In this document: positions 14,400 to 63,951 of the stretch, piece after piece
Numbering within the stretch: the stretch's first letter is position 1
Layout of the letters: every line of letters starts with the position of its first letter
Assembly (NCBI GenBank): GCA_022818135.1
Contig: JAFMSR010000016.1
Span: 7,732,127 to 7,796,126, forward strand
DNA from: Saxidomus purpurata
Lineage: Eukaryota; Mollusca; Bivalvia; Venerida; Veneridae
Direction: 5' to 3'
DNA length: 64,000 bases
Notes under the pieces: model-generated
What the model was told of the DNA's origin: nothing
Databases searched by the model: none
The model's input: the letters and a program-made list of their open reading frames with translations, nothing else
Made by a program: the position numbers and the translations under genes

Positions 14400-15487
14400 T
14401 TATTTAGTTAGATACAAAGCACCACAATTCTGAAAAATATACTCCCCTTCTTCTTCCGTGATCCAATTGGACTCAATCATGTTTTTAACCACTTTCAAGT
14501 CGTTCGCAACTTTCTGATTATTTTTCATTTTTCCTTCATTTAATTTCCGCAGGTTCTGACGGATCGATGTCGAACTGATGTTGTTCATCTCAGTTGGCAC
14601 AACAAAGAATTGGAGCGACCGATTCGGATCATTTTTCTTTGCTTTCTCAAACGATTTTCTTGCACCTGAACTCATCCCCTTGCGACCAACACAGAGAATG
14701 AACCTGTTTTCTCTCCTGATGGCAGCCACCCTGCTGTGTGTCAAGATCGCACGATCAGATCCCATCAGTAGGACAAGAGTAGCATGTGGCTTGTTTAGGT
14801 CCTTACGCAATTGTAATCCGAATTTAAGTTGTGAGCCGACTGGAGTTGGCGAAACTTTAATACACGGGTGATTGACGCAAGCGAGTTCGCAAAGTTTTAA
14901 TCGATGTTCAAATTTAATACACAGATCACGTGAATTTTGAAATTTGTCTTTGATGTTATTGTCCGAAGCTATAGCAATTTGTGTATCACAGACGTGGTAC
15001 TTTGCTGTATTTTCGAGCCACTGCTTGGCTTCAACAAGTGCGTTAACGTGCCCTAGATGTACTGGATTAAAAGCACCATAAAGGTACAAAATTGCCTCTC
15101 TCGCGTCATTAGACGAAAAGTCTTCCTCTGAGTTATTTACGCTTGAGAACGCTTCAGCGAGTGTAAAATTGAATGAGTCGATGTCTAGAGGTTCAGCAAA
15201 ATCTTCAGCCTTATCGGTCTCTTCGTTTGTTATGTCCAATGCATTACAGATCTCTCTAGAACCAGGTATGTAGTCCGTTTCTTTCGGAGTCCAAACGGAG
15301 TTTAGATTTCCCTTCTGGATATGTCGTCTCTGGTGTTCAACATACTCCGATATATCTTTGATGCCGAGAACCCATTTGGTATAGAACTGCCGCAAAATTG
15401 AACCACTTATTCTTATATTCGGAACATACCGTGTAAGAACTTCGCCCGTCGGAGACCTGTCCAGATACCATTCAAGGAGAACCTCAT
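14400..15487 (-). CDS. Exon 3: DUF4291 C-terminus plus nucleotidyltransferase domain
   Basis: This exon reads for 362 codons including the stop. The acceptor is TTTATAG at 15488-15494 (complement), weak in pyrimidines but the only one that keeps frame with exon 2. The first 60 residues match the DUF4291 end, including 'SGSILRQFYTKWVLGIKDIS'. The enzyme domain starts near residue 468 (AILYLYGAFNPVHLGH); the (H/T)xGH motif and the distal ISSTxxR motif of the cytidylyltransferase-like superfamily are both intact. LLMGSDRAIL lies where bacterial-type NMNATs have their central strand and Asp. The compact HLGH form resembles bacterial NadD more than classical animal NMNAT1-3. Substrate (NMN, NaMN or another phosphate compound) cannot be told from sequence alone. 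Confidence 0.88.
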
Positions 15488-18400
15488 CTATAAATAGATT
15501 TAAAGTGTTTGAATTTTTTACAAAGCGTTGTCGCGATACACATCTTTATTAAATCAGGTTATGCATGTTATATGGTTTTCAAATGTGATTTTTGAACTAA
15601 CTGTTTTGAATTGCAATCTTATATTTAGCATTTAATGGTTGAAACAAATTCTAAGGTCTCTTGGTAACGTTTTTAATGGTCGAAAATATTTTTACGGCGA
15701 CGGCGTGTGTTTGCGACTATTAAAACCCGCAGTTACTGACGAAATGTCTAAATCACTAAAGTAACGTATTTGCTAAAATGTGTTACTGAAAAACCTTTAG
15801 ATAAGTTATTTAACCGTCGCAAATCTTCATGACGTTACTACTGCAATCAGAATCGACGTTTTTGGGACGGTTGTCGAAAGACCGCCGTCCCAGAGGGAAA
15901 AGAATTGAACAGAACAATAAAGATACAAACGAATTTGGCGTTACGAGGTTCCTAAAACACAGGCAACTCCGATGAAAGAAATAGTTCTAAGCGGAGTAAT
16001 ATCTAAATGCCGCAAAAGTGTTGAACTTTCTGTTTCAGACTGAGTATATTTCTACTTTAGTTCACATTTAAACGTCTTGGTTTTTGCAGTTAGGTCTCTT
16101 TCAATTGAGCATTTAAAATCCTACTTTGTAATTAAACACAATTGCACGGAATAAATGAGTGATCATTTTCACGCCTTGTAGTGAAAATTTCGGTATCTCG
16201 CTTAAAATTGAACATTTCAGTATTGCTTGCCTAAATTTAATGTACACATGCAAACACAACCGTCCCATCAGTACGTTCAGTGCTTTGATTTTAACAGAGG
16301 TAGAGGACGTAAGAACATAAACTTTCTTGATTTAGCCTGGTGATTTATTTATTCATATGCAACTATGCTGTTTTAAGTAAAACTATACCATGTACACATG
16401 TATACCGCTGTGTAAATTACTTTGTACAATTTTGTATTTAAAGTGAGGCGTATTAAAATAAACATACCATAAAACATGAATTGCCCTGTGTAACTACAGG
16501 AAATTATATATTCTATACATATCATCTCAATGTGTTTTACATTTTCAATACAAAACCTTAATCTCAGATTATCTATGCAAATTAATGAATCAACTTAAAT
16601 TCCCAGGATCACAATGAATCAACTTAAAGTCCCAGGATCACAATGAATCACCTTAAAGTCCCAGGATCACAATGAAGCAACTTAAAGTCCCAGGATCACA
16701 ATGAATCAACTTAAAGTCCCAGGATCACAATGAATCAACTTAAAGTCCCAGGATCACAATGAATTAACTTAAATTCCCAGGATCACAATGAATTAACTTA
16801 AATTCCCAGGATCACAATGAATCAACTTAAAGTCCCAGGATCACAATGAATCAACTTAAAGTCCCAGGATCACAATGAATCAACTTAAAGTCCCAGGATC
16901 ACAATGAATCAACTTAAAGTCCCAGGATCACAATGAATCAACTTAAAGTCCCAGGATCACAATGAATCAACTTAAAGTCCCAGGATCACAATGAACATTA
17001 AGTCATGCTAGAGAGTCAGGTGCTACTAGAACAATAGAAAAAAGACTTTATCAGAATACACATGTAAACTTGTAAACACGTATGCCCTAGGTCAGTTTTC
17101 AATAATTTATGGTTCTATTTCCTTTCAAAATGACCATCATAATATAGATATTCTAAAGGATTAATCCCGTTGTTAAAATTATGATGGTCACTTTGAAGGG
17201 TATTACCTAGGCAGAATTTGCCGTAGTCGCTCTCTTCCTTTGGCACTAAAAATTACAAACTTTTGAACGAAAAAGGAGGGTGGCATCTCCTAATAAAAAA
17301 ATATCCTATTTAGACACAAAAACAAACATTGACAGTGCTGGGGTCGGTCACAAGTAGATTGGTGAGCTCAACCGATCTTTTAATTCACTTAACATAACTT
17401 GAAGTGCAATAATACTCAAAATAATCCGTTGTTTTTAAGAACACTGGGAGAATGCATTTAAAATATTAAAGTGACATTATGCTCATCTTACTGCACATAG
17501 TGTATTTTTGGTGACAGTTTTATAAAAGTAATTTTCGGTACCTGTGCATTTAAATGTGTTAAACTAATGATAATGCCGCATTAATATTTGAAGTTGGTGC
17601 CTTAGAAATTAAAGAAATGGACTAATTAAATAATAATTCCTTCCTTGGCAGTGATCTCCCTTGTGTTATTAGTGTTGCTCGGCAGTGGAGGGAAGCAACT
17701 CCGACATGCATTTGTTTATTTCTTAAATTGACTCTCCCAGTCAAAATAGGAAAAGTAATTTTGGAAAGTTATTATTTCGTACTGGTGCAGGAAAAGTTTG
17801 TTGAATTTGGGTTAAAAGTTATTATGTCCTCTACCCTTTTCACACACACCTATTTCAGCTGGAATTTTACTTAAAACAAATGTGCATAATGTCACTTTAA
17901 GCTATACCTAAAAATCCAAGGAGAATATTACAGTTTCTACTAGAAACAATGCCCTAATTTACTTCTTTTGGTTACTGTAGATCTAAATGTGCTTGTTCCG
18001 GATGTGATTATGTGAGAAACCTCTTACGTTTAGACAGCTACAGCTCATTCTGGATAAAGTGACAGTCACGCAGCAAAACAGTTTAATATTATTATATATG
18101 TTAATTCATTAGATAATGCAAGGACTTAATCTTAAATTCTTAATTAATTGCATGTCAAATGCAACTGCTATTATCATAGATGAACAGTACTTTTTTGCTC
18201 GTTTTATATCATGAACTAAACTTAAACCAAGAGTTTAACGTATTAGTATTTCATTGGTTCGTGACAATGATGCTGAAGCAGATAATTTATACATGTAACA
18301 AACCGGATAAAAGTACACAATACACGGAAATAACAACAGAAATCAAAGATCAAGTGCTTGATAATCAGCTGGGGAATTTTCAAAGGTTTATACGTTTACA

Positions 18401-21280
18401 AACAACTGAACTTAATCTCTGCCAAACGAACTCCTTTTTTTTTTTTAAATCTTCATTGTTACACACAATATATTTTGATTAACAGATGACTAATTTCAAG
18501 AAAATGAAAAGGCTTCATTTGCATAGATTTTGCAGCTTTCATATCATTTGAATGCATGTATTACTAAGTATTAATACATGTAAAGGGTTAGCTAGAGCAA
18601 GAACTACGTTGCATTTTTTTTTATCCTCAAGGTCTGATAAAGGCGGAAAATTTATTCAGTATGCTCTTCATGTGTTTTTGTTGCGTTTAGAAAGTATGTA
18701 AACGTGTAGATATTTCGAAAGGTCTGTTAAACCTCTAAACAAATACAGCTGCCCCTATGCTGAAAGGTGTCGTTGCATTTAATACACCAATCCCTTCTTG
18801 CAGATTGTATGCTTTCGCATGTTCTGTGATAGGTCACAATCCCTAACCATAAGAAAATGGTTATAAAATTGAAACATATAAAAAATTCAAATGCTAATGA
18901 CACGGTTTCCTTTGACAGGGAAAAAATTATAGAATATAAGGAAGTATTTGAGGATAGAGGGTGAAACCTATCTGTAACTCTTGTTCAAAATTTGAGGACA
19001 GTTGATAAATCTTATAACATGTACATATAATGACATATTTCCTTTTGTAGAAATTAGCACCAACTTTGTTTAAAAAAGAGAGAAGGCCTTTCTAGAAATG
19101 TATTGGTTTACAAACTATTTCACAAATTAAGAAAGATTTAACCTTAACATATTTTTGCTAATAAATGTTCAGCTAGACTCTAAGCGTACCTTAAAATATA
19201 CACGGGGAAAATATGTCTCGAGCAAAAGTATCAAGCGGAAGTATTTTGAGTGTTAAACCAGTAGGGTGTGTACATACATGAAAACGGAAATCATTTGAGA
19301 TGGACTACACGGTAAATTTTAAAACAAAAATCAACGACGGGTCAAAAGTGAAAACAGAATATATTCCTTGTTTGAATATAAAACAAGATCTTGGAAGTAG
19401 CAGTTTTTTAATATTTCAGTTGTTAAAGACGCAATCCCCTCCCTGTGTTTCGACCGTTATTATCTTGATATAAATATGGTAATGATCTCTATATTTGACT
19501 GCTAACAGTAATATTAAGCTTAGAGGACATTTATCCCTGTTAACATTTTCTGATATTACCGCGTGGTGCATAAAATGATATACCGAGCTTATATGAATGG
19601 CTCTTAAACCAGTATTATTTCGTGCAGGTAGTGATTACTTTATTAGACACGAATCAGAACTATATGTCTCAATGCTTAATTTCGATAATAGGCTATATGT
19701 AATCAATCCAATACAAACAACAAGGTAATACACATACCGAGCTCTCTATCATTTTGAACGTCATCCGCGTATGTACGTAGTATCGTTTCAAACCCTTCTC
19801 TTCGTATTGAAACAGCTAAGATCCTCTCGTGATCCAATCCATTCCCCCAATTACAACTGTGCATTTTTCTTACAAAGCTCGTTTGAAGCCATACGAAATC
19901 GTTATTTTCCTGAATGCTTTCATCATTCTTTCTGTTTCCTTCATGTTTTTCCGACACTGCTATTCTCAATCTAGGTGGTACCGGTGGCAAACTTTCATCC
20001 GATTCACATTTTGTGGGTATATTGGTCTTATTTTTACATTTTTCAGAAACGTTTGAAACTGCTTCAAAATCAATTTCTTTTTCACTTTTTATAGACATGG
20101 TTGCTTCTCCTTCGAGTTTTACTGGATCACTTAACAACTTTTTAAGCTGTTTCGTTCTACGTGGTACTGGTGGCCTACACCCACCGGTATCACATTTTGT
20201 ATATACTATAGTCTCATTTTCACATTTTGAGGAACCACTTGAATCTGCTTCTACTGATTCGTCTGTTTTGTTTTCATATTTTACTGGCAACGTTGCCTCG
20301 TCTTTAAGATCTGCTGACTCATGAAACAACTGTTCACACTTTTCTAATACAGTTGCGTCCCCTAAAAGTTTTGCTAAATCGCTTGTCTCTTTTTCACATC
20401 GAACTGACTCGGTTGTTTCCCCTTCAACGTTTGCAGACGCGTCTCTCTCTGTTTCACATTTACCCAATGCACGTGCAACCTTATTGCATGAATAATCGTC
20501 TGCTAGATTAAAACAGAAAACAAACACTCTAAACGTGCTTATCTATGTGTTTGCCAAAATAACTTCAGTGCAACTGAGATTAAATAACGATATCAAAATT
20601 AGTTATTTTACGAAAGATTGAACCTGCAAAGCAATCATTCTAGGATAGGTCGAACACAAAAATTTATTTGCACCGAGTGTTGATTTCAGCAATATCAAAC
20701 TACAGTCAAACCTGTGAACAAAGACCAGTGTTGGGAAGCTACAAATGCGGTCTTTGTTTACAGGTGGTCTTTATTCACAGGTATTTTACTACATATGAAT
20801 AGTGCAAGGTGATCTCCCCGCTGGTCTTTATTTGCAGGGTGGTCTTTATTGGGAGGTGGTCTTTAACACAGGTTTGACTGTATATAAATAACTGAGGCAA
20901 ATCAAGATTTGTATATATGACATTTATAGTTATTGTACTGTACATTTGTATAGATCAGTCCAATCAGATAAATCCTCTTTATTATCTACAAATGTAATTC
21001 TTTTCACACCGTACAATATCTAATTAAACCTTATACCTGTTTCTTCGATGCAAACGCCATTTTGTGAAGCTGCTACATTTATGTCGTCTGCATCTTTAGA
21101 GAAATGATCTGTAATCCATTTTTCACGTCCCTTGTAGAAACCATTTCGTATTTGACCATGCACTGTCCCGTAAACTATTATTGCAACATCGTCATACTGC
21201 GAAAGAATATGTCTGCCTTCACTTGGCCAGCTATCTTTTTGCTGGGCATTATAACGATCCAGTTTTAGATTGAAACTCAT
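14400..21280 (-). CDS. DUF4291 domain fused to an NMNAT-like nucleotidyltransferase
   Basis: Three exons on the minus strand: 21037-21280, 19738-20502, 14400-15487; GT-AG junctions, phase 1 at both introns, 698 residues. The start ATG at 21278-21280 has A at -3. Residues 1-81 hold the DUF4291 N-terminus (SEGRHILSQYDDVAIIVY). Residues 82-280 are a low-complexity insert rich in Glu, Lys, Thr and Cys. Residues 281-395 complete DUF4291 (VWLQTSFVRKMHSCNWG, ILAVSIRREGFETIL, then LEWYLDRSPTGEVL and YTKWVLGIKDISEYV). After an acidic linker comes a nucleotidyltransferase with GAFNPVHLGH (474-483) and ISSTSIR (640-646). The family fold and motifs are established; the fusion and its role are my inference. 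An alternative is two adjacent genes, but the exon that carries the nucleotidyltransferase also carries the DUF4291 C-terminus in one open frame. Confidence 0.82.
16584..16989 (+). repeat. 29-bp minisatellite, exactly 14 units
   Basis: The unit starts AATGAATCAACTTAAAGTCC and ends CAGGATCAC. The 406 bases divide into exactly 14 units of 29 with no indels and only scattered single-base variants (unit 1 and two neighbouring middle units read 'aaattccc'; one unit has 'gaagca'; one has 'tcacct'). It lies in intron 2 of the DUF4291-nucleotidyltransferase gene. Confidence 0.97.
17083..17214. mobile_element. Small palindromic MITE-like element
   Basis: Outer ends 'tgccctaggt' and 'tacctaggca' are inverses apart from one base. 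Inner arms 'cctttcaaaatgaccatcat' and 'atgatggtcactttgaag' also pair. About 130 bases in total, in intron 2 of the fusion gene, able to fold as one long imperfect hairpin. Confidence 0.65.
17466..17900 (+). mobile_element. TTAA-flanked MITE, copy 1
   Basis: It begins TTAAAGTGACATTATGC and ends with the exact inverse GCATAATGTCACTTTAA. If the outer TTAA is the duplicated target, the terminal inverted repeat is 13 bases and the target is that of piggyBac-type elements. Length 435. The second copy (25511-25939) is inverted and of similar length, with shared inner text such as 'ttgactctcccagtcaaa' and 'gaagcaact'. No open frame of note. Confidence 0.85.
19738..20502 (-). CDS. Exon 2: low-complexity insert and DUF4291 core
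   Basis: The exon carries a roughly 200-residue insert of loose repeats: a Lys-Cys-Glu or Lys-Ser-Glu triplet recurs about every 20 residues, alternating with 'GEATMS' or 'DEATLP' phrases. Two PxxPxR motifs, PPVPRR (residues 192-197, about 20156-20173) and PPVPPR (254-259), fit class II SH3 ligands. The final 56 residues return to conserved DUF4291 sequence. The insert splits DUF4291 between its first strand pair and its Trp-Ile-Lys-like 'VWLQTSF' segment, and probably loops out of the fold. Long antisense frames here are shadows. Confidence 0.8.
20701..20882. mobile_element. MITE with perfect 16-base inverted ends
   Basis: It begins TACAGTCAAACCTGTG and ends CACAGGTTTGACTGTA, a perfect inverse, with TA at each end as the likely target duplication. 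The interior is packed with 'ggtctttatt' and 'ggtctttgtt' repeats. It fits a Tc1/mariner or pogo-type miniature element of about 180 bases, in intron 1 of the fusion gene. Confidence 0.88.
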
Positions 21281-22269: not shown

Positions 22270-23682
22270 TATAGCTCGCCTGAGCACGAAGGAAGTGCTC
22301 AAATGTGAGCTATGGTGAACGCCTACCGGTGTCCGTCGTCGTCTGTCTGTCGACACTTTAATCTTGTGTATGCAATAGAGGCTGCATTTTTCTCTGGATC
22401 TTCATGCAACTAAGTCAGTATGACTACTTTGGTTACTTTTGATTCTAGGCCGAGTTCGAATATGGGTCAACTGGGTTCAAAATCTAGGTCACGGGGTCAT
22501 ATCATAGAAAAATCGGGAGCATACATTGTACAACAGAGGGTTGCATTTTAAATTTCATTGAATCTTCATGAAACTTTGTCAGAATGATAGCCTTAATCAA
22601 ATCTAGGTCGAGTTTGAATATGGGTTATCTGGGGTCAAAAGCTAGATCACGGGGTCAAATCATAGAAAACCCTTGTGAATGCAATAGAGGCTGCATTTTT
22701 CATAGGATACTCGTGAAACCTGGTCAGTATGATCGCATTGATGAAATCTAGGTTAAGCGTGAATATGGGTTGGCGGGGTCAAACACTAGGTCATTGGATC
22801 AGATCATAGAAAAACCTTGTGAATGCAATAGAGGTTGCATTTTTCATCAGATCTTCATGAATTTGTCAGTATAATTGCCTTGATGAAATATAGGTGGAGA
22901 TTGAATATCGGTTATCTTGGGTCTAATTACTAGGTCACGGGGTCCAATCATAGAAAAAACCTTGTGTATGTAATACAGGCTGTTTTTACTGGATACTTGT
23001 GAAACTTTGTCAATATGACTTCCTAGATAAAATCTATGTTGATTTAGAATAAGGGTTATCTGGGATTAAAACCTAGGTCACGAGGTCAACTCATAGGAAA
23101 ACCTTGTGAATGCAGTAAAGGTTGCATTTTTCATCAGATCTTCAGGAAACTTTGTCAGTATAATTGCCTTGATAAAATATAAGTATAGTTTGAATATCGG
23201 TTATCTGGGGTGTAAATACTAGGTCACGGGGTCAAATCATAGAAAAACCTTGTGTATGTAATAGAGGCTGCATTTTTCACTGGATACTCGTGAAACTTTG
23301 TCAATATGACTTCCTTGATAAAAGCTTAGTCTATTTAGAATATGGGTTATCTGGGGTAAATACCTAGGTTACGAGGTCAAATCATAGGAAAACCTTGTGT
23401 ATGCAATGTAGGTTGCATTTTTTCATTGTATCTTCATGACACCTTGTCAGTATGAGTGTCTTGATCAAATTTAGGTCAAGTTCGAATATGGGTAATCTGG
23501 GGTCAAAAACTAGGTCACCAAGTTAAAAACCAAATCATCATGTAAGATGGTCAAAACGTTTGACTTGCCAAGGTCAAACAGAATGTTTGTGTTAATGGCA
23601 TATAGTTAAGGGTTGCAGTTTGGTCATATATTGTCATAATTAGGTTGCAGGTGAGCGACATAGGGCCATCTTGGCCCTCGTG
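22270..23682 (+). mobile_element. Long tandem-cored non-autonomous element, most complete copy
   Basis: The left end is 'tatagctcgcctgagcac', with a short GAGCAC/GTGCTC hairpin and then a 'gtccgtcgtcgtctgtctg' patch. Eight or nine units of about 150 bases follow, each containing variants of 'ccttgtgaatgcaatagagg', 'aaactttgtcagtatga' and 'actaggtcacggggtcaaat'. The right end is 'caggtgagcgacatagggcc' then the hairpin GGGCCATCTTGGCCC. No protein. The terminal hairpins recall Helitron-like non-autonomous elements, but I do not see a clean TC...CTRR pair. Confidence 0.8.

Positions 23683-26335: not shown

Positions 26336-63951
<37,616 letters not shown>

Follow-up and report, generated by a model that had tools for sequence, protein, structure and literature searches.

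A 64,000-nucleotide stretch of the Saxidomus purpurata genome (contig JAFMSR010000016.1, positions 7,732,127 to 7,796,126), here called the window, carries a gene in which a DUF4291 domain is fused to a nucleotidyltransferase domain resembling nicotinamide mononucleotide adenylyltransferase (NMNAT). The fusion in this clam gene is confirmed. It belongs to a bivalve family that, on balance, we consider probable to pair a DUF4291 domain of ADP-ribosyltransferase (ART) fold with a eukaryote-type NMNAT-like domain, and thereby to supply its own NAD; the copy in the window is altered.

The fused gene and its relatives

Three minus-strand exons with GT/AG splice borders join into an ATG-to-stop open reading frame of 698 codons:

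21037..21280, minus strand: exon 1, codons 1–81, with the start codon and the DUF4291 N-terminal strand (HILSQYDDVAIIVYG)
20503..21036, minus strand: intron 1, phase 1, with borders GTATAAGG ... TAATCTAG
19738..20502, minus strand: exon 2, most of a low-complexity insert, then the DUF4291 core to ...RREGFETILRTYADDVQNDRE
15488..19737, minus strand: intron 2, phase 1, with borders GTATGTGT ... TTTATAG
14400..15487, minus strand: exon 3, the DUF4291 C-terminal part, a linker, the NMNAT-like domain and the stop codon

Exon 1 is bordered by the ATG start and a GT donor, and exon 2 by an AG acceptor and a GT donor; the start of exon 2 may move by one codon because the acceptor reads TAG/CAG. The end of DUF4291 and the entire nucleotidyltransferase domain, with its motifs GAFNPVHLGH and SSTSIR, lie in a single open frame (14400–15545). 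Since one frame spans both domains, the fusion in exon 3 is certain and independent of gene prediction there, as the first-pass annotation had argued. The insert, ∼230 residues long (about residues 47–283), interrupts the DUF4291 domain. Tandem repeats occur within intron 2 (29-bp units, 14 copies, 97% matches; 16584–16995) and upstream of the gene (146-bp units, 6.7 copies; 22553–23518).

Both domains scored above their Pfam cut-offs in the profile search that the first-pass annotation had proposed: DUF4291 (PF14124) at residues 284–409 (3e-16; 60.3 bits against a gathering cut-off of 27) and CTP_transf_like at residues 472–647 (1.9e-10; above the curated cut-off). The Pfam match to DUF4291 stops short of exon 1. 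DUF4291 matches had been expected at residues 1–81 and 281–395, and profiles built in this analysis found them at residues 4–46 and 284–424 with the insert between, with E-values that come from a tiny database and are not comparable with the others. NCBIfam TIGR00482 matches at 9.3e-14 and 51.9 bits, under its equivalog cut-off of 112.45, and the nucleotidyltransferase motifs GxFNPxHxxH and SSTxIR are present. A scan of the window against Rfam gave no match, and the PADLOC defence-system families gave none for four proteins.

Comparison of residues 281–690 with 5.8 billion proteins recovered two, Mercenaria LOC123559349 and P0002; the sequence of the latter starts within DUF4291, in its C-terminal portion, and includes the second domain. 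The Mercenaria protein (521 residues, with a smaller insert) has the same architecture and is 48% identical over residues 280–695 and 62.5% identical over exon 1 residues 1–40, and because it matches both regions it supports the gene model. A search with five fused proteins yielded 3886 relatives. Among the 120 best matches listed, 15 bear both Pfam domains in a precomputed table, and both motifs are visible in the sequences of P0007, P0013 and P0023 as well. The fusion does recur in other molluscs, where the first-pass annotation had proposed to look for it: those that can be named belong to Mercenaria, Ruditapes, Mactra, Mya, Dreissena, Potamilus and Sinanodonta. Transcript-derived P0019 (GFUD01006510), whose source we take to be a copepod, has the same fusion. 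P0004 (615 residues on a 2,058-base contig) and P0008 (428 residues on 1,439 bases) probably also derive from transcripts, because both cross both intron positions of paralogue B, described next.

The Saxidomus genome (1.13 Gb) contains two further DUF4291 genes, both fused. The contig of the window gene also holds paralogue A, ∼76 kb away; paralogue B is located on a different contig. All three genes have a phase-1 intron directly ahead of the DUF4291 C-terminal part and encode the second domain in their final exon. An ordinary separate NMNAT gene seemingly exists elsewhere in the genome (two exon matches, E about 7e-4).

In a DUF4291 tree using 40 of 80 bacterial rows, the fused proteins P0018 and P0019 fall outside the bivalve fusions. 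Approximately unbiased (AU) tests were run with 20 of the 80 bacterial rows and with the window and Mercenaria rows omitted because of their long branches. Constraining the 10 bivalve fused rows together with P0018 and P0019 gave an AU p of 0.045, and adding two unfused oyster rows to the constraint gave 0.68. By these trees, all the fusions could go back to a single ancient event, with oysters losing it afterwards, or to two separate events.

Fold and genomic context of DUF4291

DUF4291 proteins are present in bacteria, in many animals and in a fungus, and the literature searched, mostly without subscription papers, described no function for it. An oyster relative gave a confident predicted fold whose best match in the PDB is the C-terminal toxin domain of RhsP2 (7rt7), an RNA 2'-OH ADP-ribosyltransferase; the further, more distant matches are other ARTs. 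The model thus indicates an ART-type fold, in agreement with what the first-pass annotation had tentatively suggested. The two domains share 14% identity, and RhsP2 is not among the matches listed in sequence-profile searches with DUF4291. RhsP2 is moreover a secreted interbacterial toxin, whereas none of the DUF4291 genes encountered in this analysis forms part of a toxin gene. The ADP-ribose that RhsP2 attaches to RNA can be taken off by PARG (PMC11833690).

Twenty-six residues are invariant across 11 bacterial and eukaryotic DUF4291 rows, by a criterion of our own. None of them is a glutamate in the core, where the H-Y-E, R-S-E and R-Y-E triads of ARTs were looked for by sequence comparison. 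RhsP2 has an R-Y-E triad according to PMC12340436, and this triad is not evident in DUF4291. The lack of an invariant core glutamate is the main weakness of our interpretation.

DUF4291 is also fused to domains associated with RNA. Among the best 120 relatives listed, seven carry a Surp domain (P0061, P0062, P0066, P0069, P0073, P0082 and P0098; four are named Mytilus proteins), and six of the seven have an RRM too. By eye, P0061 contains a RanBP2-like zinc finger as well. These fusions offer a lead towards RNA processing, and together with the RhsP2-like fold they favour RNA as the substrate.

Bacterial gene neighbourhoods point in a related direction. A scan of species genomes found at least 578 DUF4291 relatives, the best 80 of which were kept; flanks of up to 6 kb (shorter at contig ends) were searched by tblastn with representative neighbours, and gene identities were taken from Pfam. 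The 80 loci are best matches to one query and not a random sample, and their counts carry no random-neighbourhood baseline. At least one NAD or ADP-ribose gene lies near DUF4291 at 15 of the 80, one of which (L051) has a lone weak NADAR match. NADAR occurs at 14 loci, NrtR at 13, KptA at 12, a Pfam-confirmed macrodomain at nine, ARH at seven, PARG at six and SIR2 at five; another macro-like query, so judged by eye and with no Pfam match, was found at nine. Matches to an NMNAT-Nudix query, other than that at L098, are probably Nudix cross-matches. Bacteroidota, which account for 15 of the 80 loci, provide 12 of the 15 with this context (phylum ranks are those we presume); the remainder include one Verrucomicrobiota and one Paenibacillus. 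Four NAD/ADP-ribose clusters (L023, L024, L038 and L040) hold two DUF4291 genes each, one of the short bacterial type and one with an animal-type N-terminus. A conserved neighbour of ∼138 residues with no Pfam match (L024:6609–7022 and relatives) occurs at eight of the 80 loci and is apparently fused to a PARG domain at L026. Of seven plasmid regions viewed, one (Eleftheria) has a macrodomain gene near DUF4291, and on an E. coli plasmid (L015) the DUF4291 gene immediately follows apaH, within a run of genes of chromosomal type. Viral contigs held three DUF4291 loci and one weak nucleotidyltransferase locus; in phage records the nucleotidyltransferase domain had no match.

In these clusters (NrtR, NADAR, macro, SIR2, ARH, KptA) DUF4291 is a separate gene, unlike the fused clam protein. 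The ARG-centred systems that Iyer et al. describe (PMC9503650) are different again, because they were sought by the absence of coupled ARTs and sirtuins. The same paper describes NadM as an NMNAT-Nudix fusion and NadR as an NMNAT-kinase fusion. These resemble the clam protein in joining an NMNAT-type domain to an NAD-related enzyme, but the partner is a Nudix or kinase domain rather than one of ART fold. No NMNAT-ART fusion was described in the literature searched.

Because fusion, fold and bacterial neighbourhood agree, DUF4291 is likely to belong to NAD/ADP-ribose chemistry; its NMNAT-like and RNA-binding fusions are concordant for what is a common family. In the intact members (paralogues A and B and the proteins of Ruditapes, Mactra, Mya, Dreissena, Potamilus and Sinanodonta), the C-terminal domain would most likely combine ATP with nicotinamide mononucleotide (NMN) or nicotinic acid mononucleotide to give NAD or a closely related adenylyl dinucleotide. 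The N-terminal domain would most likely spend NAD by transferring or processing ADP-ribose on nucleic acid, probably RNA, and the fusion would furnish its own co-substrate, coupling NAD synthesis to NAD use.

Two other functions of DUF4291 have to be weighed. It could be a KptA/Tpt1-like processor of RNA ends or RNA 2'-phosphates, with the NMNAT-like domain recycling or replacing the NAD spent. KptA is an enzyme of the ART superfamily that lacks the catalytic glutamate, and the absence of an invariant core glutamate from DUF4291, the 12 neighbourhoods with KptA and the RRM/Surp fusions would all fit. The best fold match is nevertheless RhsP2, with no KptA chain among the matches listed (KptA was not compared directly), and two genes that sit side by side at the same loci need not share a job; we regard this function as unlikely. 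Less likely again is an ART-fold sensor or hydrolase of NAD or ADP-ribose that transfers no ADP-ribose and acts, in a homeostasis module, as a regulator of the NMNAT domain or a complement to it. The absence of the glutamate argues for it too, as do bacterial neighbours such as the Nudix regulator NrtR and the ADP-ribose hydrolases, but 26 residues invariant from bacteria to eukaryotes suggest an enzyme and the closest fold is that of a transferase.

RNA ADP-ribosylation is familiar mainly from toxins and defence. A broader reading of the self-supplying family, which we put forward tentatively and hold to be rather doubtful, is that several bivalve lineages and the source organism of P0019 possess a self-fuelling nucleic-acid ART, and that DUF4291 is a general cellular family of RNA-directed ARTs to which RhsP2 is the toxin counterpart. 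If so, RNA ADP-ribosylation would gain an endogenous family of animal enzymes, and NAD synthesis and use would be joined in one chain.

The nucleotidyltransferase half and divergence of the window copy

The fold of the second domain was examined in the model of a Ruditapes relative. It is nearest to human NMNAT3 and NMNAT1 (about 21% identity; the clam protein differs by its DUF4291 fusion), and human, plant and fungal NMNATs are all among the matches. Rotifer and EukProt proteins are among those of its sequence relatives that can be assigned to a source. The first-pass annotation had read the HLGH form of the motif as a sign of possible transfer from bacteria, a reading that these relationships do not support: the closeness to human NMNAT3/1 leaves a bacterial origin of this half unsupported. 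Among 79 family rows showing the motif, HxGH occurs in eight, four of them within the five-row subclade of the window protein; HTRH (28) and HTQH (27) are commoner. That subclade, which includes a Dreissena protein with no DUF4291 match, has an SH-aLRT (Shimodaira–Hasegawa-like approximate likelihood ratio test) value of 100 in a tree of 78 of 111 rows, from which 10 redundant or short and 23 NadD-like rows had been dropped. Several 'fused' labels in this tree were assigned by eye from a DUF4291 tail, and P0128, also tailed, is labelled standalone. By the model, the second domain is most likely a eukaryote-type NMNAT-like adenylyltransferase.

The copy in the window has diverged in both halves. 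With the insert omitted it keeps 11 of the 26 invariant DUF4291 residues, compared with 24 in paralogue A and all 26 in paralogue B. (The count for Mercenaria, 9, is too low because the domain is partly aligned, and was not used.) The window copy keeps the ATP-site motifs GAFNPVHLGH and SSTSIR but carries Asn and Ala in place of human Tyr55 and Trp169, two residues, presumably of the NMN site, that both paralogues and Ruditapes retain. In the DUF4291 tree the window and Mercenaria proteins pair on a branch of length 2.0. These sequence comparisons suggest a diverged paralogue under different constraint, and activity should not be taken for granted in so divergent a DUF4291 protein. Catalysis by its ART half has probably been lost or altered, and the NMN pocket is changed, with the ATP-binding adenylyltransferase site kept, so that the protein is likely to serve as a regulatory or neofunctionalised paralogue or to be a pseudo-ART. 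The proposal of the first-pass annotation, a maker of NAD joined to a user of NAD, therefore survives as a reading of the family. It had not foreseen that the window copy lacks most of the invariant residues of DUF4291 as well as the Trp and Tyr of the NMN site, and that copy suits it less well than the intact paralogues do.

A decaying pseudogene would account for the same losses, with 15 of 26 invariant residues altered, a very long branch (about 2.0 plus 0.77), a large low-complexity insert and no NMN-site Trp or Tyr. The full 698-codon frame and intact splice borders speak against decay, as does retention of GxFNPxHxGH and SSTxIR in P0001 (Mercenaria), P0002 and P0128 despite large divergence, and we consider it improbable, even more so than the sensor or hydrolase described above.

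Other features of the window and assembly

At 50668–52146, on both strands, long homopolymer stretches of A, C and G extend over ∼1.5 kb, give long open frames in all six readings and are possibly an assembly or sequencing artefact. In contig C62 of the assembly (G000; locus L008), single open frames for FolD-like and PPAT-like proteins adjoin by eye; the contig looks bacterial, from a symbiont or a contaminant. Minus-strand open frames at 42238–43806 and 47073–48623 of the window contain a CEMIP-type β-helix and IPT/TIG domains and probably belong to what we take to be a fibrocystin-like gene.
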